From: Thiomicrospira sp. WB1
Lineage (GTDB): Bacteria > Pseudomonadota > Gammaproteobacteria > Thiomicrospirales > Thiomicrospiraceae
DNA length: 64,000 nucleotides
Direction of reading: 5' to 3'
Assembly (NCBI RefSeq): GCF_001507535.1
Contig: NZ_LQBN01000003.1
Location: 248,001-312,000 of the forward strand
Shown: positions 9,965 through 62,960 of the stretch, piece by piece
Layout of the letters: each line of letters opens with the position of its first letter
How positions within the stretch are numbered: the first letter of the stretch is position 1
Made by a program: the position numbers and the translations under genes
Notes under the pieces: model-generated
Database searches by the model: none
What the model was told of the DNA's origin: nothing
The model's input: only the letters and a program-made list of their open reading frames with translations

Positions 9965-9974
9965 TCCGAAATTG

Positions 9975-9986
9975 ACCAGGCCTGGT
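9975..9986. repeat. Dispersed palindrome, copy 3, with long arms
   Basis: The 12-bp core is the centre of a perfect 28-bp palindrome spanning 9967-9994, filling most of the 41-bp gap between the convergent phoR and pit genes. Confidence 0.92.
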
Positions 9987-10005
9987 CAATTTCGAACATC
10001 GCCCA

Positions 10006-12863: not shown

Positions 12864-12875
12864 GCCTGGGTTTTG

Positions 12876-12887
12876 ACCAGGCCTGGT
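12876..12887. repeat. Dispersed palindrome, copy 4
   Basis: The core is extended to a perfect 24-bp palindrome (12870-12893) with TTTTG/CAAAA arms. It lies between the pstS terminator and the convergent ferredoxin gene. Confidence 0.92.
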
Positions 12888-12899
12888 CAAAACGGATGA

Positions 12900-15021: not shown

Positions 15022-15040
15022 GATCGATTTGGCTATTTTG

Positions 15041-15052
15041 ACCAGGCCTGGT
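15041..15052. repeat. Dispersed palindrome, copy 5
   Basis: Extended to a perfect 22-bp palindrome (15036-15057) with TTTTG/CAAAA arms, in the 52-bp gap between the convergent bolA-like gene and tesA. Confidence 0.92.
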
Positions 15053-15073
15053 CAAAAACGGGTCGCATGGCGT

Positions 15074-21631: not shown

Positions 21632-21643
21632 ACCAGGCCTGGT
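21632..21643. repeat. Dispersed palindrome, copy 6
   Basis: The 12-bp core lies six bases after the prfB stop codon, in the 82-bp spacer before lysS, with A-rich flanks. Confidence 0.9.
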
Positions 21644-23244: not shown

Positions 23245-23286
23245 AAAAACGCCGCCATGACTGTGTCAGGTCATGGCGGCGTTTTT
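23245..23286. terminator. Bidirectional terminator lysS / ygfZ
   Basis: A 16-bp perfect stem, AAAAACGCCGCCATGA paired with its complement around a CTGTGTCAGG loop, ending in TTTTT on one strand and AAAAA on the other. It separates the convergent lysS and ygfZ. Confidence 0.9.
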
Positions 23287-23309: not shown

Positions 23310-24374
23310 TCAGTCTTCGGATAGGATGTCGTAAGGCAGCGGTTCGATGGTGGCCGCCTGACCGGCTTCGGTGGTCAGTGGGGCCTGAGCCGTTTCCAGC
23401 GGCTTGAGGGTGGTAATGGCCAGACACACTTTGCCGTCTTCAATGTCTTCGGCGGCATTGATCAGGGTGAATTTATAGGGCTTTTCTTTCTGGTCGAGCA
23501 GCTTGAAGGTGTCGCCCGGGGCCAGTTCGGCCTGATTGTCTTTGAGGTGCAGGCGCACCATGCGCTTGGTAACCTTGCCGCGAAAATGCAAACGGGCGAT
23601 CACTTCCTGACCGGGGAAACAGCCTTTTCGGAAATTGATGGCGTCGAGTTTGTCCAGATTTAGAAATTGGGCAATAAACTGGCCAGCGGTGGCTTGGGTC
23701 AGGCGGGGCAGCCCGCTGACCACGTCCAATAGCTGCCAGTCGGCGTCATTGGTGGCTTCGCCATTGCCGGTCAATCCCTGCCAGATGGTTTCAGCCTGTT
23801 GCGGCGGTGCGACAAACAGATAGCGGTGATAGGGGCCGGGTACTTTGATTCCATAGCTGTCATCCAGCCCTTCCAGCGGCTGGACCTCATAGGTTTCCTT
23901 GATTTTGGTGTCGAGCAGTCGTTGAATGTTCAGGTCGGCGAATTCGCCCGCATAGCCGATTTGAACCAACTGGTCGCTGACGTTTTCGATTTCAACCTGA
24001 GCACGCAGTTTATACAGGTTTAGGCGCTGTACCACGGTGTCCGTGACGTCGGGGTCACAGTGAAGATACCAGGCCTGGTCAATTTTGAACACGGTAAACA
24101 GTCCCAGCAACTGCCCTTTGGGATCGCAATACCCGCTCAGTTGTGCCTGGGTGTCGGTGACGTTTGAGAGGTCATTGGTCAGTTGCCCCTGCAGAAAATT
24201 AAACGCTTCGTCGCCCTGGATCCGGATCAGTCCTTTGTGGGCGAGGCTGGCGCGCACCGGGCCGTGTTTGACCATGATGCGCTCCAGATCGGGTTGCCCC
24301 CAGCTGGTGACAACTCCTTGCTCGTTGAGTGTTGCGCCCTGGGATTCAAGAAATGCGTGCCATTGTGAATGCAT
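23310..24374 (-). CDS. ygfZ: YgfZ-type iron-sulfur protein maturation factor
   Basis: A 354-residue folate-binding protein of the YgfZ/GcvT-like family, which helps assemble or repair certain [4Fe-4S] enzymes such as MiaB. The family signature KGCFPGQEVIAR, with its essential Cys, is near residue 245. The N-terminal half has the GcvT-like fold, including LTNDLSNV. Palindrome copy 7 lies within the coding region, where it encodes Asp-Gln-Ala-Trp. The gene is divergent from fliO and unrelated to it by function. Confidence 0.93.
   Translation of the reverse strand: MHSQWHAFLESQGATLNEQGVVTSWGQPDLERIMVKHGPVRASLAHKGLIRIQGDEAFNFLQGQLTNDLSNVTDTQAQLSGYCDPKGQLLGLFTVFKIDQAWYLHCDPDVTDTVVQRLNLYKLRAQVEIENVSDQLVQIGYAGEFADLNIQRLLDTKIKETYEVQPLEGLDDSYGIKVPGPYHRYLFVAPPQQAETIWQGLTGNGEATNDADWQLLDVVSGLPRLTQATAGQFIAQFLNLDKLDAINFRKGCFPGQEVIARLHFRGKVTKRMVRLHLKDNQAELAPGDTFKLLDQKEKPYKFTLINAAEDIEDGKVCLAITTLKPLETAQAPLTTEAGQAATIEPLPYDILSED
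24068..24079. repeat. Dispersed palindrome, copy 7 (inside ygfZ)
   Basis: The core is in the ygfZ coding region; GACCAGGCCTGG is read in frame as DQAW. Confidence 0.9.
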
Positions 24375-26134: not shown

Positions 26135-26146
26135 ACCAGGCCTGGT
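26135..26146. repeat. Dispersed palindrome, copy 8
   Basis: The core lies in the 78-bp spacer between fliQ and fliR, an unusually wide gap for this otherwise tight operon. Confidence 0.9.
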
Positions 26147-30250: not shown

Positions 30251-31423
30251 ATGAAACTCAAACGCTATTTAGCCCCGACCATGCGTCAGGCAATGGCGTT
30301 GGTGCGCGATGAGTTGGGCGACGATGCGGTGATTATGTCGAGCCGCAAAACCGATTCCGGGGTGGAAGTCGTGGCCGCCATCGACCCGGAAGCGCAGGCG
30401 TATAAGGCTCAGCCTAAGGAGGAACCCGCGGCTCGTAGCAGTTATTATTCGCCGGAGTATGAGGTGCAGGCCAGTGCTATGCCGCCTTCGGGAGGTCCTG
30501 AAATCCAGAAAATGGCCGATGAATTGCAAGCGGTCAAACAGATGCTGGAGAACCAGCTTTCGGGTCTGGCGTGGAACCAGACCGAAACCCGGGAGCCGGA
30601 GAAAGTGGCGCTGATCAAGCGTCTGGTCAAGCTGGGGCTGGGCTGGCAACTGGCTCAACGCCTGGCGGATGAAGCGCCTGCCAATTTTGACCAGGCCTGG
30701 TCTGACGTGCTGGCGCGCATCGAACAGGAGATTCCGGTCGATTCGCGCGACGTGATCGAAAGTGGCGGCATCGTCGCTTTGGTCGGGCCGACCGGGGTGG
30801 GCAAAACCACTACCATTGCGAAAATGGCCAGCCGGTTTGTGATGCGAAACAGCGCCAGCCAAATGGCACTGGTGACCACAGACTGTTACAAAATCGGCGC
30901 GCAGGCGCAATTGAAAACCTTCGCCGATTTGTTGGGCGTGCCGGTGCATGTGGCCAATTCGCAGGGCGAGCTATACAGCCTGCTCAGCTCATTGGCCAGC
31001 AAAAAACTGGTCCTGATTGATACCGCTGGCATCAGTCAGAAAGACATTATGTTGTCGCAGCAGTTTACCAAGGAACAACCTGGGTTGAATTCCATCCGCA
31101 ATTACTTGGTGATGTCAGCGGCCACTCAGTTAAATGTGATGCAGGATGTGGTGCGTTCTTTCAGCCAGGTCGGTCTGCACGGATGCATTCTGACCAAAGT
31201 GGATGAAGCCCTGCAATTGGGGCATATATTAACCGTATTGATTGAGCATCAGCTGTCGGTGTCCTATTTATCGGGCGGTCAGCGGGTGCCGGAAGATTTG
31301 GAGCCGGTCAAAGTGAGAGATCTGGTGGACAAAGCCATTGTACTGGGGCAGCAGAATACCCAGATGGACCCGGACGATGCATTGCGTCTGGGGCTGGGCC
31401 GGGAGATATCCGATGCACAATGA
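30251..31423 (+). CDS. flhF: Flagellar-placement GTPase FlhF
   Basis: A 390-residue SRP-type GTPase that places polar flagella. The basic N-terminal B domain (KLKRYLAPTMRQAM start) is followed by a helical N region and the G domain: G1 VGPTGVGKTTTIAKMA, G2 DCYKIGAQAQL, G3 DTAGISQ, and G4 ILTKVDE. The ATG directly follows the flhA stop; GGGAG at the end of flhA is the ribosome site. The gene overlaps flhG by 11 bp. Presence of flhF-flhG argues for polar rather than peritrichous flagella. Palindrome copy 9 is inside the gene and encodes DQAW. Confidence 0.95.
   Translation: MKLKRYLAPTMRQAMALVRDELGDDAVIMSSRKTDSGVEVVAAIDPEAQAYKAQPKEEPAARSSYYSPEYEVQASAMPPSGGPEIQKMADELQAVKQMLENQLSGLAWNQTETREPEKVALIKRLVKLGLGWQLAQRLADEAPANFDQAWSDVLARIEQEIPVDSRDVIESGGIVALVGPTGVGKTTTIAKMASRFVMRNSASQMALVTTDCYKIGAQAQLKTFADLLGVPVHVANSQGELYSLLSSLASKKLVLIDTAGISQKDIMLSQQFTKEQPGLNSIRNYLVMSAATQLNVMQDVVRSFSQVGLHGCILTKVDEALQLGHILTVLIEHQLSVSYLSGGQRVPEDLEPVKVRDLVDKAIVLGQQNTQMDPDDALRLGLGREISDAQ
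30690..30701. repeat. Dispersed palindrome, copy 9 (inside flhF)
   Basis: Read in frame as DQAW within NFDQAWSDVL, in the helical region before the GTPase domain. Confidence 0.9.
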
Positions 31424-37071: not shown

Positions 37072-37079
37072 CCGTTTTT

Positions 37080-37091
37080 ACCAGGCCTGGT
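37080..37091. repeat. Dispersed palindrome, copy 10, with long arms
   Basis: The core is the centre of a perfect 28-bp palindrome (37072-37099) that starts at the base after the cheW stop codon and lies between convergent cheW and hslO. Confidence 0.92.
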
Positions 37092-37113
37092 AAAAACGGA
37101 GTTGTTTTGGTTC

Positions 37114-38154: not shown

Positions 38155-38808
38155 ATGTCAGCCAGAAGCATTCCAAAAAACTATCGCAACGTAACGGGAA
38201 TTTATGCGTCCGCCAAGTCCGAGGATGCGGCTATGTTTGAATCGACCTTGGAGCGCGATTTTATCACAACACTAGAGTTCGACAGTAAGGTAACCAGCTT
38301 TGATGTCCAGCCTGTGCAAATTGAATGGTTCGACAAAAACGGCAAGCGGCGCTCTTACACTCCGGACATTCTTGTGAAAAGAAAAACTCGCTCCGGTGAG
38401 GAAACGGTCTTGGTTGAAGTGAAGTACCGCTCGGACCTGGAGAAGGATTGGGCGGACCTGAAGCCCAAACTGATGGCCGGTCTTCGCTATGCCAAACAGC
38501 GGGGCTGGAAGTTCAAAATCATGACCGAAGTCGAAATCCGCACGATTTTGTTGAAAAACGCCAAATTCCTGATGCCTTTCATCCGTCGTGGTGCGGATCG
38601 TGAAGGCGATATGACGTTGATCGACAACAAGCTTAAAGAGTTGAGGCAGTCGACGCCCAAGGCGTTACTCGAACAGCTCGCATACAGCGACTGGGACAAG
38701 GCGGCGTTGCTGCCCACGCTTTGGTACTTGATCGGGACGAAACAAATCCGGTGCGACCTTTATGGGGCGCAACTCAATATGAATACACCGATTTATTGGA
38801 AACCATAG
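38155..38808 (+). CDS. tnsA: Transposon endonuclease TnsA
   Basis: A 217-residue protein of the TnsA type, the endonuclease that cuts the 5' strands at the transposon ends so that the element leaves by cut-and-paste rather than replicative movement. Restriction-enzyme-like catalytic residues are visible: Glu33 in ESTLERDF, Asp71 in YTPDILV, and Glu88/Lys90 in LVEVKYR. The ATG at 38155 is favoured because the tnsA promoter would start RNA near 38122; a GTG at 38131 is in frame but lies within a TnsB-type site. It is shorter than Tn7 TnsA (273) because the N-terminal part is reduced. tnsB follows after 8 bp. Confidence 0.9.
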   Translation: MSARSIPKNYRNVTGIYASAKSEDAAMFESTLERDFITTLEFDSKVTSFDVQPVQIEWFDKNGKRRSYTPDILVKRKTRSGEETVLVEVKYRSDLEKDWADLKPKLMAGLRYAKQRGWKFKIMTEVEIRTILLKNAKFLMPFIRRGADREGDMTLIDNKLKELRQSTPKALLEQLAYSDWDKAALLPTLWYLIGTKQIRCDLYGAQLNMNTPIYWKP

Positions 38809-38816
38809 AGGTAGGT

Positions 38817-40694
38817 ATGGTGGCTGAATCCGGAATGCTGAAATTGGAACCGGGCGAATCCGTTTCTTATCACGGGGAAGAGTATTTCATTCGCCAGGTG
38901 ACCGACCTGACCCACGTCATGCTGATCCATCCGAAGACGAGCACACTTAAAGAAGTGCGAATCTCCGAAATCAGCGGCATCAATTTTGACGAGGCCAAAC
39001 CCACCGAGGATTTGGAGCTGATTCCGGAAGCCAAGTGGGATAAGGCCTTAAAGCGCTTCGGTATTATCAAGCCCCTGCTGGTTAAGGGAAGAACCCGCGC
39101 CATGGTCGAAAGCCGGGCCATTGAGCACGGATATTCCGCCAATACGCTTTACAACTGGATCAGGAGCTACGAGGAGACCGGCAAGGTAACGGATTTGTTG
39201 CCGGGAAAAAGGGCCGATAAGGGGGAAGCGAAACTAAGCCCGGAGCTGCAAGACCTGATCAAAAGCGTCATTAAGACCGAATATAAAACGAAGCAGAAGA
39301 AATCGGTCACCAAGGTACACCGAGAACTGAAGATCCAGTGCCGAGACAAGGGACTGAAGCCGCCGCACTACAACACTCTGAGAAACTGGATCAACAAGGA
39401 ATCTCCCAAAGAATTGCAAAGGGTCAGGGAAGGCGACAAAAAAGCGGCGGAAAAGTACAGCCATATTCAGGGCAAATTTCCCGGAGCCGACTGGCCTTTT
39501 TCCTACGTCCAGGTGGACCATACGTGGCTGGACGTCCAACTGTGCGACGACCATTGGCGTCGTCCCGTCGGTCGTCCCTGGATAACGGTCGTGTTCGACG
39601 TCTTCTCCAGAATGGTGCTCGGCTTCCGAGTCGGATTCGATGCGCCTTCCGGTTTGGTGACCGGTCTTGCGATTGCTCATTCGGCGCTGCCTAAAGAGGA
39701 TTGGCTGGCCAAATACAATGTCAACGGAGAGTGGCCGTGCTGGGGAATAAATTATGGTTCGCTTCACATGGATAACGCCAAGGAGTTCCGTGGCAAATTG
39801 ATTCAACGTGCATGCGACCAGTACGGCATTAACGTCGAGTGGAGACCGGTTGCGCGGCCTCATTACGGCGCGCACATCGAGCGTTACCTCGGCACCTTGG
39901 CCGAAGAGTTGAAAGGGGTGTCCGGCGCAACGTTTTCCAATGTTGCCGAAAAAGGAAACTACGACAGCGAAGGCAACGCCGTGCTTACGTTGTCCGACCT
40001 CGAAGAGTGGCTGACCCTGTATATTGTCGGCGTTTACCATAACACCAACCATTCGGCTTTGGGTATGCCGCCTTTGGCAAAGTTCCGGCAAGGGCTTTTA
40101 GGTGACAATGAGAATCCGGGAATCGGTCTGCCAGCTCAAATCCAAGGCCCCCGTCGTTTCCGTTTGGACTTTCTTCCGTTCATTGAAAGAACGGTTCAAA
40201 GAAGCGGGATCGTTGTCGACGAGGTGGTGTATTTTGCAGACGTCTTGCGACGCTGGATCAATGCGCCCGATCCTGAAAAGCCGAGCGTCAAACGCAAGTT
40301 TATCGTCCGACGGGACCCTCGGGACATCAGCACGATTTGGTTTTTCGACCCCGACGACAACGAATACTACCCGGTTCCCTACCGAAACACCGCCTATCCG
40401 CCGGTGAGCGTGTGGGAGTGGCGGGCCGCGCAAGCGAGGCTGAAACAGGAGCAAAAAGGCCGACAGGACGAAGACCTGATCTTCGCCACGATTAAGCGCA
40501 TGCGCGAGATTGAGGAAGAAGCGGCGAGAAAAACCAAGTCGGCTCGCAGGGCCCAGGAACGCAAGAAGCACGTATCCATGCTGCCGCTCCAGCCGGAACC
40601 CCAAACCGATACGAATGCGGATGAGGAGTCAAGTGAGGAAGTGGTTCCGAAGAAGACGATCACGCCATTCGAAGATCTGGACGAAATGCTATGA
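38817..40694 (+). CDS. tnsB: DDE transposase TnsB
   Basis: A 625-residue transposase that binds the ends and joins their 3' ends to the target. The catalytic triad is complete: Asp234 (VQVDHTWLD), Asp319 (HMDNAKEF) and Glu355 (GAHIERYLG), giving DDE with 35 residues between the last two. N-terminal helix-turn-helix regions (about 75-215) should bind the repeated end sites. The C-terminus is charged (RRAQERKKH, then acidic) and probably contacts TnsC. AGAGGTAGG sets the start at 38817. tnsC overlaps by four bases. Confidence 0.95.
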   Translation: MVAESGMLKLEPGESVSYHGEEYFIRQVTDLTHVMLIHPKTSTLKEVRISEISGINFDEAKPTEDLELIPEAKWDKALKRFGIIKPLLVKGRTRAMVESRAIEHGYSANTLYNWIRSYEETGKVTDLLPGKRADKGEAKLSPELQDLIKSVIKTEYKTKQKKSVTKVHRELKIQCRDKGLKPPHYNTLRNWINKESPKELQRVREGDKKAAEKYSHIQGKFPGADWPFSYVQVDHTWLDVQLCDDHWRRPVGRPWITVVFDVFSRMVLGFRVGFDAPSGLVTGLAIAHSALPKEDWLAKYNVNGEWPCWGINYGSLHMDNAKEFRGKLIQRACDQYGINVEWRPVARPHYGAHIERYLGTLAEELKGVSGATFSNVAEKGNYDSEGNAVLTLSDLEEWLTLYIVGVYHNTNHSALGMPPLAKFRQGLLGDNENPGIGLPAQIQGPRRFRLDFLPFIERTVQRSGIVVDEVVYFADVLRRWINAPDPEKPSVKRKFIVRRDPRDISTIWFFDPDDNEYYPVPYRNTAYPPVSVWEWRAAQARLKQEQKGRQDEDLIFATIKRMREIEEEAARKTKSARRAQERKKHVSMLPLQPEPQTDTNADEESSEEVVPKKTITPFEDLDEML

Positions 40695-41593
40695 GCTTGG
40701 AGCATCTGACCCCTAAAACGAGAGAGCTGCTCAAACTCGATGATGAAGAGCGTATCCGGGTTATCCGTGCCTCACGTTGGGTCGGCTATCCTCGGGCTAA
40801 AAAGCTGCTGGCAAAGCTTAATGAGCTGTTGGACTATCCGAGGACCGACCGCATGCCCAACTTGCTCATTATCGGCGACACGAACAACGGCAAGACGATG
40901 CTGGTCAAACGGTTCTGCAATATGCATCCCGCGTCCGACAATCCAGAGGGCTACAGCGTGTCCCTTCCGGTGTTGTACGTCGAGTGTCCTCCCAAGCCCG
41001 ACGAGGGGCGGCTATATGACGAGATTTTGGGCAAGCTCTACCAAAAGTTCAAGGAGCGGGACAATGCCGGTAAAAAGCAGTCCCAGGTGCTGAAAGTCTG
41101 TGAAACAATCGGCGTCAAAATGATCATACTGGACGAGGTGCAACATATTCTTGCGGGCAGCCACAACCAGCAGCGCCTGTTTTTGAACGTGCTCAAGACC
41201 TTGGGTAACAAGCTGAAGGTTCCGATCGTGGCCGTCGGTATTAGGGAGGCGTTCAACGCCATCCAAACGGACGCGCAGCTGGCGAACCGGTTCGAGCTCG
41301 CACCGCTGCCGCGATGGCGGCTCGGGGACGAGGATTACGAACGGCTTTTGGCGAGTTTCGAGGCCTTGCTGCCGTTGAACCAACCGTCCTACCTCTATGA
41401 GAACCAGCTGGCCAATAAGCTTTTTTCAATGACCGACGGTTACATTGGTGAACTGGCCCGCGTGCTTTCCAAGGCGGCCGAAGAGGCGATCCGTTCCGGA
41501 GAGGAAAGAATTACGCTGAAAATTCTCAAACAATTGGATTGGGTCGCGCCTTCCGAAAGGAAACGGCAAATGGACCGGATTTTGGGGATTTGA
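40691..41593 (+). CDS. tnsC: AAA+ transposition regulator TnsC (short, TniB-like)
   Basis: A 300-residue AAA+ ATPase that links target choice to the transposase. Walker A is GDTNNGKT at residues 62-69 and Walker B is IILDE at 145-149, followed by an arginine-rich sensor region near AQLANRFELAPLPRW. Tn7 TnsC has 555 residues; this protein has the smaller size of TniB and of TnsC from CRISPR-associated and related elements. Its ATG overlaps the tnsB stop (ATGA), so the two are translationally coupled. Confidence 0.93.
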   Translation: MSLEHLTPKTRELLKLDDEERIRVIRASRWVGYPRAKKLLAKLNELLDYPRTDRMPNLLIIGDTNNGKTMLVKRFCNMHPASDNPEGYSVSLPVLYVECPPKPDEGRLYDEILGKLYQKFKERDNAGKKQSQVLKVCETIGVKMIILDEVQHILAGSHNQQRLFLNVLKTLGNKLKVPIVAVGIREAFNAIQTDAQLANRFELAPLPRWRLGDEDYERLLASFEALLPLNQPSYLYENQLANKLFSMTDGYIGELARVLSKAAEEAIRSGEERITLKILKQLDWVAPSERKRQMDRILGI

Positions 41594-41595
41594 CC

Positions 41596-42657
41596 ATGTT
41601 ATCGGGTAAGCTTTGGCCGGTTCACCCACATCCTTACCCGAACGAATTGATGTCCTCTTGGTTGGTCAGAATCGCGCACGCCAATGGCGAAAAGGTGCAG
41701 ACGTTTTGCCATCAAGAGTTCGGTGTCAAACACCAGGTTTGGAACCGGGATATCGACCGGCTCGGACCTGACTGGCTTCTCAGTCAACTTGCAGAGAAAA
41801 CGGCGACAGCCATAAAGGTTGTCCGGCAGACGACATTAAAGCGTTATGAAGGTGTTCTGTTTCAACATGCAAGGAACTCTGGAGTCGAACCCTGGATCAC
41901 CCCGCTAAAGGTTTACCACCGTAAGCATAATGGTTTTGGTATGCAATTTTGTCCTCAATGCTTGAAAGAAGACGAAGAGCCTTATTTCAGGACGCATTGG
42001 CGGGTCGCGCTTTACACATTTTGCCCAAAGCACCAAATTATGATGCATGATCGGTGTCAGGAATGTGGAGAACCGGTGGCGTTTCATCGAATTGAACTAG
42101 GAAAGGGGAACGAAGAGGTGGGTTTGGAGAAGAAGCTCGCCACCTGCTTTAATTGCGGTTTCTACTTGGCGGCATCGAAAAGAGAAAAAGCTGACCATTT
42201 AACCTGGAATGTTTTTGAGAATTGGCAAGACACTCTGTTGGGTTTAGAAGGTGTTAGTTTGACCGAGTATGATATAGAGCGACTGGTCGTATTACATCAA
42301 TTTTCAAAACTTTTGACATCAAAAGCGACATCGGAAAAGTTATTGAAATTCATTGAAGAGACGATGTCTTTGAGTTTAAACCGGCCAAATTTAGAGTTAA
42401 AGTCTTTTGATAAAAATGACCTTTCTATACGTCATCAAACAATTGGATGCGGATGGTGGCTATTAATGGATTGGCCTAATAACTTATATTGGACTTGGCT
42501 GAACGGTGCCGTTCGTTACAATCAACTGTTGAAGGATTTATGGTTCATACCTAGCTGGTATTCAGCTGAAGTAACCTTTTTTAACGTTAATTACAGGAAA
42601 AGGCTTGATTTACTAGAGAAAGGCAACAAAACTCATTCTATTCATCTACCGGAATGA
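41596..42657 (+). CDS. tniQ: Target-selection protein TniQ/TnsD family
   Basis: A 353-residue TniQ-family protein that recognises a target site and recruits TnsC. The N-terminal motif PYPNELMSSWLVRIA is the family hallmark. Zinc-binding pairs follow: C119/C122, C143/H146, C154/C157, and a later CFNC. It is shorter than Tn7 TnsD (508 residues), having about 130 residues after the zinc region. It starts two bases after the tnsC stop. The last third becomes AT-rich, like the cargo that follows. Whether it recognises lipA, where the element sits, is open. Confidence 0.9.
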   Translation: MLSGKLWPVHPHPYPNELMSSWLVRIAHANGEKVQTFCHQEFGVKHQVWNRDIDRLGPDWLLSQLAEKTATAIKVVRQTTLKRYEGVLFQHARNSGVEPWITPLKVYHRKHNGFGMQFCPQCLKEDEEPYFRTHWRVALYTFCPKHQIMMHDRCQECGEPVAFHRIELGKGNEEVGLEKKLATCFNCGFYLAASKREKADHLTWNVFENWQDTLLGLEGVSLTEYDIERLVVLHQFSKLLTSKATSEKLLKFIEETMSLSLNRPNLELKSFDKNDLSIRHQTIGCGWWLLMDWPNNLYWTWLNGAVRYNQLLKDLWFIPSWYSAEVTFFNVNYRKRLDLLEKGNKTHSIHLPE

Positions 42658-42669
42658 AAAAATAACAGT

Positions 42670-42675
42670 TATAAT
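42670..42675 (+). promoter_or_regulatory. -10 box before the methyltransferase gene
   Basis: A perfect TATAAT 39 bp before the methyltransferase ATG, in an AT-rich spacer. No convincing -35 was seen, so this is tentative. AAGG near 42704 is the ribosome site. Confidence 0.4.
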
Positions 42676-42713
42676 TCCTTAAATTTCATTTTGTATTATT
42701 TTTAAGGCTGTTC

Positions 42714-44003
42714 ATGTCCACTTCCTTAGCTAATCAAGAAAATTTGTTTGATAAATGGGTTGATCAACTTAAGGTTGAAGCTCCTCACTCATCAAATCAG
42801 CCAAGTATAAACCTACCTTACCAAAGATGGTTTAGGTTTAAAGAAGCATATTCTCCACAATTGGTTTCCGACATTGTCTCGTCACTTGAGACTAGGCCTG
42901 TGACAGTTTTGGATCCGTTTGGAGGGTGTGGAACTACCGCAGTAACATGTCAATTTTTAGGCATTACGCCAACAGCCATTGAAGTTAACCCCTTTTTAGC
43001 GGATTTAACCCAATCGAAACTTTCTCAATATGACTTGAATGATTTAAAAAGTGCGAAATTAGACCTTCTTCAAGCAGTGGACCGTATACACATAACTCAA
43101 AAAGATATTGATAAATATCCCCCTACATTTTGTGAGCCAGGAATAAAAGATAGGTGGTTGTTTAGTGAAGCATTATTTCATCGAATTTTACAGTATAAGG
43201 CTGTTATTAATTCATTTGAAGATCAAGACGTTAAGCGTTTATTTAAGGTTGTTTTAGGTAGTTGTCTGATTCCGGTTAGCAACGTGTTGATCGATGGAAA
43301 AGGAAGGAAATATAGAAAAAACTGGCTAGAAAATCAATCTAAAGTAGATGATTTTGAAGAGCTGTTTCTGCAAAAATTAGACGAAGTAATATGTGATATA
43401 AGAGAGTATGGTGCGAAGACTAGAGACTTTAATTTATTAAAAGGTGATTGTCGTGAACAAATAAAAAATGTTCAAAGTTTTGATTTGTCGATATTTTCTC
43501 CACCTTATCCCAATACTTTCGATTATACCGATGTTTATAATGTTGAACTTTGGATTTTGGATTATATAAAGTCTAATGAGCAGTGTCTTTCATTAAGATC
43601 AGAAACGTTGCGATCTCATGTTCAAGTTAAAAGAGATTATGGGAATATTTATGCAAAATCCTTTTTGTTGGAGCAGGTAGAAAAACAACTAAAGGAAATT
43701 GAGCAGAATCTTTGGCATAAAGATATACCAAGTATGGTTGGAGCTTATTTTAGTGATTTGGGTGGATTGTTAATGGAAATGCGAACCAAGATAGCAGTTG
43801 ATGGAAATATCATTATGGTTGTTGGTGATAGTGCATATAAGTCAATCAGAGTACCTGTTGCCGATATACTTGAAGAAATTGCTATAAGTATTGGATACAA
43901 AACACATAAAAAAGAAGTTCTTAGAAAGCTAAGGACGAGTTACCAACAGGGGAGGCGACAAGATTTAGATGAAACTATGCTTTGGGTTGTTCCTTCATCC
44001 TAA
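42714..44003 (+). CDS. Site-specific DNA methyltransferase (SPPY type)
   Basis: A 429-residue amino-methyltransferase. AdoMet-binding motif I is DPFGGCGTT at residues 67-75 with an acidic residue in AIEVNPF after the next strand. Catalytic motif IV is SPPY at 262-265. SPPY is commonest in N4-cytosine enzymes but also occurs in N6-adenine ones, so the base is unsure. The roughly 190 residues between the motifs probably include the target-recognition region. The gene is AT-rich and ends one base from the convergent nuclease gene. It may protect host DNA from that nuclease; this is inference. Confidence 0.85.
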   Translation: MSTSLANQENLFDKWVDQLKVEAPHSSNQPSINLPYQRWFRFKEAYSPQLVSDIVSSLETRPVTVLDPFGGCGTTAVTCQFLGITPTAIEVNPFLADLTQSKLSQYDLNDLKSAKLDLLQAVDRIHITQKDIDKYPPTFCEPGIKDRWLFSEALFHRILQYKAVINSFEDQDVKRLFKVVLGSCLIPVSNVLIDGKGRKYRKNWLENQSKVDDFEELFLQKLDEVICDIREYGAKTRDFNLLKGDCREQIKNVQSFDLSIFSPPYPNTFDYTDVYNVELWILDYIKSNEQCLSLRSETLRSHVQVKRDYGNIYAKSFLLEQVEKQLKEIEQNLWHKDIPSMVGAYFSDLGGLLMEMRTKIAVDGNIIMVVGDSAYKSIRVPVADILEEIAISIGYKTHKKEVLRKLRTSYQQGRRQDLDETMLWVVPSS

Positions 44004-53500: not shown

Positions 53501-53665
53501 GGGGTTCTTTTTTCCTGTTCTTAAGGGGTTGGCAGTATGGGCATCTCTGGAAGCCGTCATTGAATGGCGCCGACGGCCAGCTTCTATGATACCGCGCTAT
53601 TTTAGCGAAATTCGATGGGAATACAAAGCCTCGACGCCATCTTCTCCATGGTTCTGTCAGGAACC

Positions 53666-53677
53666 ACCAGGCCTGGT
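53666..53677. repeat. Dispersed palindrome, copy 11
   Basis: The core lies in the 206-bp spacer between rodA and dacA, 30 bp after the rodA stop codon. Confidence 0.9.
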
Positions 53678-53706
53678 GATTTTTGCAGGGATGGAGGTCT
53701 GTTGGA

Positions 53707-62896: not shown

Positions 62897-62919
62897 TGGC
62901 AAGGTTTTCCCAACTTTTT

Positions 62920-62931
62920 ACCAGGCCTGGT
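62920..62931. repeat. Dispersed palindrome, copy 12
   Basis: The core, with nearly symmetric ACTTTTT / GAAAAGT arms, lies between gatB and the htpX promoter. Confidence 0.9.
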
Positions 62932-62960
62932 GAAAAGTCGGGATTTGCCTTCATTAAAAC

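Follow-up and report, generated by a model that had tools for sequence, protein, structure and literature searches.

An iterated 12-bp palindrome with lineage dialects in Thiomicrospira sp. WB1 and its relatives, a possible uptake-sequence-like motif that doubles as a hairpin near gene 3′ ends

Results

Two convergent junctions share a palindromic core

The window analyzed here, a 64,000-nucleotide stretch of the 2.28-Mb genome of Thiomicrospira sp. WB1 (G000), contains two perfect 28-bp palindromes. One lies at 9967–9994 between phoR (PF11808/HisKA) and the gene of a PHO4-family phosphate transporter (pit), and the other at 37072–37099 between the genes of a CheW protein and Hsp33 (hslO), as the initial annotation had described. 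The convergent gaps that hold them measure 41 bp (phoR–pit) and 42 bp (cheW–hslO). It had also been proposed that both junctions lack any other clear terminator, and our own scan of the two gaps agreed, finding none; in a looser terminator scan the palindrome itself was the sole match, weak and on one strand in each gap. The further claim that the two copies have different arm sequences held for the outer arms, but it had missed a 12-bp core, ACCAGGCCTGGT, that is common to both.

The inner 10 bp of this core, CCAGGCCTGG, was present in 12 exact copies in the window, and allowing at most one mismatch gave 16 matches against 2.43 expected, a number reached in none of 100 shuffles. The core copies of the window and their surroundings are listed in Table 1. 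Strong terminator-like hairpins with T/A tracts were observed at two other convergent junctions of the window, at 508–541, where the hairpin adjoins a core copy, and at 23245–23286, in a gap without a core.

Table 1. Palindromes and core copies in the window.
Feature	Position	Remarks
28-bp perfect palindrome, phoR–pit	9967–9994	core ACCAGGCCTGGT at 9975–9986; RNA fold: 12-bp stem, GGCC loop
28-bp perfect palindrome, cheW–hslO	37072–37099	core at 37080–37091; in H. halophilus core kept, arms changed; RNA fold
Core copy, 14-bp palindrome, convergent junction	455–468	
Core copy, divergent gap	2155–2166	
Core copy, 24-bp palindrome, convergent junction	12870–12893	
Core copy, 22-bp palindrome, convergent junction	15036–15057	
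Core copy, 3′ of RF-1/PCRF-domain release-factor gene	21632–21643	
Core copy inside gene 23310–24374 (minus strand)	24068–24079	core kept in H. halophilus
Core copy between codirectional genes	26135–26146	kept in H. halophilus
Core copy inside gene 30251–31423 (plus strand)	30689–30702	kept in H. halophilus
Core copy between codirectional genes	53665–53678	kept in H. halophilus
Core copy with long imperfect symmetric arms, 3′ of gene	62908–62943	core at 62920–62931; kept in H. halophilus

A search with the pit protein recovered Hydrogenovibrio and Thiomicrorhabdus records among the relatives, the closest being H. halophilus (G006), whose best segment was 92% identical in protein sequence. At the phoR–pit junction, H. 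halophilus (L009) has the core with asymmetric arms and two loci (L010, L011) have xCAGGCCTGx; in several other relatives the junction has a separate terminator-like hairpin and no core.

Iteration and dialects of the core

Core counts were compared among 62 genomes of Hydrogenovibrio/Thiomicrorhabdus relatives, which we take to belong to the family Thiomicrospiraceae. The results showed that ACCAGGCCTGGT occurs 400 times in G000, or about once per 5.7 kb, against 0 for the reversed pattern as control. Across the family set the exact core ranged from 0 to 718 copies, with at least one copy in 41 of the 62 genomes and at least 80 in 27 of them, and in a class-wide draw of 274 genomes each of the 271 from other families had at most 5. 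Three core types, differing by genome within this one family, were distinguished. Besides the exact core, a dialect xCAGGCCTGx, without the outer C/G pair, reached 933 copies in G041, 520 in G023, 457 in G047, 448 in G046 and 328 in G033, and a dialect ACCGGCCGGT was found in 1025 copies in G026 and in at most 15 in every other genome. Four genomes of the window's own genus (G007, G008, G012, and G013) had no exact core and few or none of the three core types, and no other genome-wide iterated palindrome was detected in the 80–140 kb read from each of G007, G008, and G012; the 40 kb of G042 was too little for such a search.

Two further candidates, TATCGATA in G005 and AGCCGGCT in G008, appeared dialect-like in 40 kb, failed in 140 kb and were dropped. 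Their local clusters, 18 copies in 40 kb each (L116/L117 for TATCGATA, L111/L112 for AGCCGGCT), are apparently confined arrays and not genome-wide motifs. In a literature search by title and opening lines of the abstract, no paper on the motif was identified, and the ACCAGGCCTGGT string was found in none of the papers of the library searched.

In G000 and H. halophilus, single mismatches were nearly absent from the central CAGGCCTG, and the two outer pairs tolerated some, which fits the dialects. Exact copies outnumbered near-misses by 80 to 22 in 464 kb of G000. On both sides the core was followed by any base and then, at about +8 to +12, by an A/T tract in G000, H. halophilus, and G061. In G005 the tracts were shifted outward, in G020 they were less pronounced, and the 15 sites of G056 did not show them clearly; the flanks in G026 had a distinct pattern of their own.

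The core is conserved at the DNA level inside and outside genes

Sequence was sampled from G000 (864 kb), H. halophilus (958 kb) and, in smaller pieces, other relatives, and genes were called with a simple custom script in place of a standard gene finder. Nearly half of the copies lay inside genes (74 of 159 in the G000 sample, 105 of 220 in H. halophilus), where they were read mostly in the frame xAC-CAG-GCC-TGG, encoding Gln-Ala-Trp (54/74 and 66/105, respectively).

Conservation was counted on the 109 of the 159 G000 copies that could be aligned to H. halophilus stretches, the 50 unaligned copies being excluded. The 12-mer was identical in the two species at 56 of 62 gene sites and at 33 of 47 intergenic sites (possibly 34 of 47, as one site scored as not identical shows 0 mismatches when ungapped). 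Other 12-mers in the same alignments agreed in 9.5% (gene sites) and 13.4% (intergenic sites) of cases, and the control words AGGCCT/GGCCTGG outside the motif agreed at 6 of 65 places in genes. At third codon positions, 242 of 248 agreed within the core, compared with 5233 of 8938 (59%) in the same genes 40–300 bp away. These results showed that selection or biased gain maintains the core at the DNA level, inside genes as well as outside them. The core is the main feature, since it is conserved in genes too, where the arms are asymmetric.

Placement along the chromosome

In genes, G000 and H. halophilus had 0.10 and 0.13 cores per kb, respectively; in convergent gaps the values rose to 1.74 and 2.09. 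Apart from one island, core density was flat over 800 kb in both genomes. The coefficient of variation (CV) of the spacing was 0.60 over 800 kb of G000, calculated with an 83-kb gap excluded, and 0.68 over 800 kb of H. halophilus, compared with 0.97 in context-matched simulations, none of the 3000 for each genome reaching the observed value. Spacings below 1 kb made up 4.1% and 7.0% of those observed vs. 17% and 19% of those simulated. For the positions listed in G005, which comprise the ACC...GGT form alone, the CV was 1.02, and even spacing was not shown.

The 83-kb gap, at about 209–292 kb of contig 1 of G000 (L099–L103), contained no core and had a GC content of 0.44–0.50 against 0.53–0.56 in the adjoining bins; it is probably an acquired island. 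Low-GC 10-kb bins of G000 held 5 cores in 12 bins vs. 152 in the 74 others, and the corresponding depletion in H. halophilus was slight (24 cores in 13 bins vs. 195 in 82). In the window, no exact core was found between 37.1 and 53.7 kb. At 38721–44003, and on to about 49351, lies a Tn7/Tn5053-like transposition module (TnsB/TniA-like, TniB, TniQ) followed by a type II-like N6/N4 methyltransferase gene and low-GC genes, one of them weakly LmuB/AAA-similar; this is probably a transposon with defense or restriction cargo.

Long symmetric arms occur near gene 3′ ends

The symmetry of the arms was assessed by permutation, in which left arms were newly combined with right arms within each gene context. 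The statistic used at first, total pairing, gave a weak result for the convergent sites of G000 (58 of 5000 permutations reached the observed value), and for those of H. halophilus 2002 of 5000 permutations reached it. With this result known, the statistic was switched to unbroken extension (4000 permutations); new sequence was added after the switch, and the effect persisted in the enlarged data, in which the earlier sites are included.

Symmetry over at least 22 bp was reached by 21 of 59 convergent sites, against a permuted mean of 5.05 that no permutation brought up to the observed number. The convergent sites of G000 showed the same at 22 bp or more (10 of 24 vs. 2.70; 0/4000) and at 28 bp or more (3 of 24 vs. 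0.29; 4/4000). Long arms were likewise in excess where codirectional sites lay no farther than 80 bp from a 3′ end (16 of 91 vs. 5.89; 0/4000). For codirectional sites beyond this distance (3 of 38 vs. 2.52 expected) and for divergent sites (0 of 11 vs. 0.45), both small classes, the numbers were near expectation, and in-gene sites showed no significant excess (10 of 179 vs. 6.98; 556/4000). The excess being confined to the neighborhood of gene 3′ ends, the arms are tied to transcript ends; they serve, or result from, something there, most simply an RNA hairpin.

The initial annotation had suggested that symmetry itself is selected, for dimer binding or for a hairpin in the transcripts. Arm symmetry does exceed what composition gives near 3′ ends, but the copies are not merely symmetric, having the fixed 12-bp core in common. 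The hairpin agrees with the restriction of long arms to 3′ ends, and the RNA hairpins fold stably. A bound dimer may account for the core; the symmetry of the arms varies with gene context and is not explained in this way. Compensating changes, whose count had been put forward as a check, were not clear: at sites with a hairpin in G000, 14 arm pairs differed between the species, and pairing was kept through a double change in 3 of them and lost in 11. Long arms at orthologous sites were often present in one species only, and, with double changes not clearly in excess, the hairpins therefore turn over quickly.

As a class, the hairpins did not resemble intrinsic terminators, as the 8 nt after the hairpin contained on average 2.08 T against a background of 2.23. 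In G000, 41 of 55 distances to 3′ ends were at most 60 bp, and at 9 of 14 convergent sites the order was T-tract, core, A-tract, the reverse of a terminator. Forty-two convergent gaps were examined, nine longer ones being skipped. Canonical terminators were found in 3 of the 12 gaps with a core and in 3 of the 30 without, and cores therefore do not visibly replace terminators. In G005 (L116, L117, L133–L137), in contrast to G000, many copies had the form of a classical bidirectional terminator (A-tract, GC stem with the core, T-tract).

Discussion

A possible uptake-sequence-like motif

The iteration of the core, its A/T segments, dialects, preferred reading frame, silent-site conservation, absence from the island, even spacing, and gene-end hairpins together resemble what has been reported for the uptake sequences of Pasteurellaceae (USS) and Neisseriaceae (DUS) (PMC1626085, PMC3630211, PMC1939737), except that the motif is palindromic and less dense. 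On this likeness we propose, as a reading that is plausible if just short of probable, that the motif is a palindromic uptake-sequence-like element that doubles as a transcript-end hairpin. It has two layers. The first is a family-specific, highly iterated recognition site, in which ACCAGGCCTGGT and one arbitrary base are bordered on either side by an A/T tract lying roughly a helical turn away from the dyad. Its most likely role would be in natural transformation, where a surface receptor, possibly dimeric, would read it as a DNA uptake signal and every few kilobases of the bacterium's own DNA would bear one tag. In the second layer, a copy just past a stop codon often has its flanks extended into a perfect RNA hairpin, in keeping with the 3′-end specificity shown above, and this hairpin may set or protect the end of the transcript from either or both of the converging genes. 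As it lacks the U-tract of an intrinsic terminator, it would probably act once transcription has been terminated through Rho or in another way.

Slightly less probable is that these genomes represent a third bacterial family with uptake sequences of its own, with perfect palindromes, two-sided A/T tracts, a putative symmetric receptor, at least three dialects, and reuse as transcript-end hairpins. The motif may be a label by which these sulfur-oxidizing bacteria recognize DNA of their own kind.

The protein data bear on how the motif is to be classed. No match above the cut-off to PF16732 (ComP, the DUS receptor) was found in the 62 family genomes. Since this receptor family is missing and the uptake preference is one we infer, the motif is not filed as a DUS or USS member, only as working like one. 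The uptake receptor of Pasteurellaceae is itself only predicted, so a receptor of another type may operate here. PF12019 (GspH/FimT-type) matched in 3 of the 62 genomes, none of them with many copies of the counted motifs, and ComEC, present in 56 of 62, was equally common in genomes without the motif and does not separate them. Against uptake stand the palindromic form and low density of the motif, its even spacing, the long arms often confined to one species at orthologous sites, and the surplus of exact copies over near-misses, which is sharper than expected for an uptake motif.

Alternative explanations

The strongest rival, given that the core has dyad symmetry and its copies are very evenly spaced, is that the core is the site of a putative dimeric intracellular protein that organizes, partitions or marks the chromosome and contacts or bends the A/T flanks. 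The fixed central CAGGCCTG, the two-sided tracts, the scarcity of short spacings and the flat density all speak for such a protein, and even spacing suits a role in chromosome compaction at least as well as uptake; according to Bakkali, Karlin and colleagues concluded from the even distribution of uptake sequences that these might have a part in replication, repair or compaction (PMC1939737). However, an essential organizer should not be lost as easily as the absence of the exact core from four genomes of the same genus would require, three of these relatives showed no replacement palindrome in the sequence read, and the marked concentration of copies near gene 3′ ends and in convergent gaps is not expected of it. 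We regard the organizer as a somewhat unlikely explanation.

A second alternative concerns the arms alone, whose symmetry could come from mutation, with template switching turning imperfect palindromes into perfect ones that are tolerated outside genes and have no hairpin function. Long palindromes do come and go, and orthologous sites have different arms in the two species, but the excess of long arms stops short of the distal codirectional and divergent classes, small as these are, and we consider this origin unlikely.

A HIP1-like origin, in which the palindrome is made and kept through a cognate DNA methyltransferase acting on GGCC or AGGCCT, as proposed for cyanobacteria, would account for the same kind of object, a GC-rich palindrome in hundreds of copies with lineage-specific replacements and palindromic extensions (PMC4390886). 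No PF00145 (C5 methyltransferase) match was found, however, in G000, H. halophilus, any of the nine genomes of genus g6, G025, G049 or G061 (181–688 copies), nor any PF01555 match in H. halophilus, and the single PF01555 gene of G000 sits in the core-free transposon island. With C5 methyltransferases lacking in genomes that carry hundreds of copies, an origin through methylation is very unlikely within the two enzyme families covered, PF00145 and PF01555, and C5 methylation as the driver was rejected.

That the palindromes are bidirectional intrinsic terminators and nothing more, with the core as a favored stem, would suit their stable folding, their crowding near stop codons and the several terminator-like copies of G005, but it is highly improbable with about half of the copies inside genes and conserved at the DNA level, no T excess after the hairpins, a reversed tract order in G000 and no visible substitution for terminators, and it was discarded.

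If the uptake-like reading is true, a palindromic, evenly spaced, dialect-bearing motif in environmental sulfur oxidizers would be an independent case for the origin of such sequences; otherwise, it would mark the chromosome sequence-specifically at hundreds of places. Both readings can be tested directly, as the family has cultured members.

Comparison with known systems

REP elements are repeated palindromic sequences outside genes. The motif resembles them in its repeated palindromes outside genes, but it is not extragenic as a class, as nearly half of its copies lie within genes, and the 12-bp core plus tracts alone are common to the copies. Compared with intrinsic terminators, the hairpin is present and the T content after it is at background.

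HIP1 of cyanobacteria is likewise a palindrome in very many copies, and it too has alternates specific to lineages and palindromic extensions. Cognate methyltransferases accompany HIP1, whereas genomes here carry hundreds of copies without C5 enzymes, and A/T tracts and gene-end preference are not among its features in the account drawn on here (PMC4390886).

The DUS of Neisseriaceae share with the motif lineage dialects and gene-end copies that form hairpins (PMC3630211). They are non-palindromic 10–12-mers whose terminator hairpin requires an inverted pair, and the ComP receptor that reads them was not found in the 62 family genomes. The USS of Pasteurellaceae have a short core, hundreds of copies inside and outside genes, AT-rich segments about one turn away, and subclade types (PMC1626085). 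As described, they are non-palindromic 9-mers with A/T on one side at nearly one per kb, unlike the present 12-bp palindrome, with tracts on two sides, about one copy per 5.7 kb and a possible role in uptake; the uptake sequences treated in PMC1939737 and PMC12616744 are not palindromes. In common with both USS and DUS, the motif shows genome-wide over-representation, dialects within one family, and scarcity in recently acquired DNA, the last being weaker in H. halophilus.
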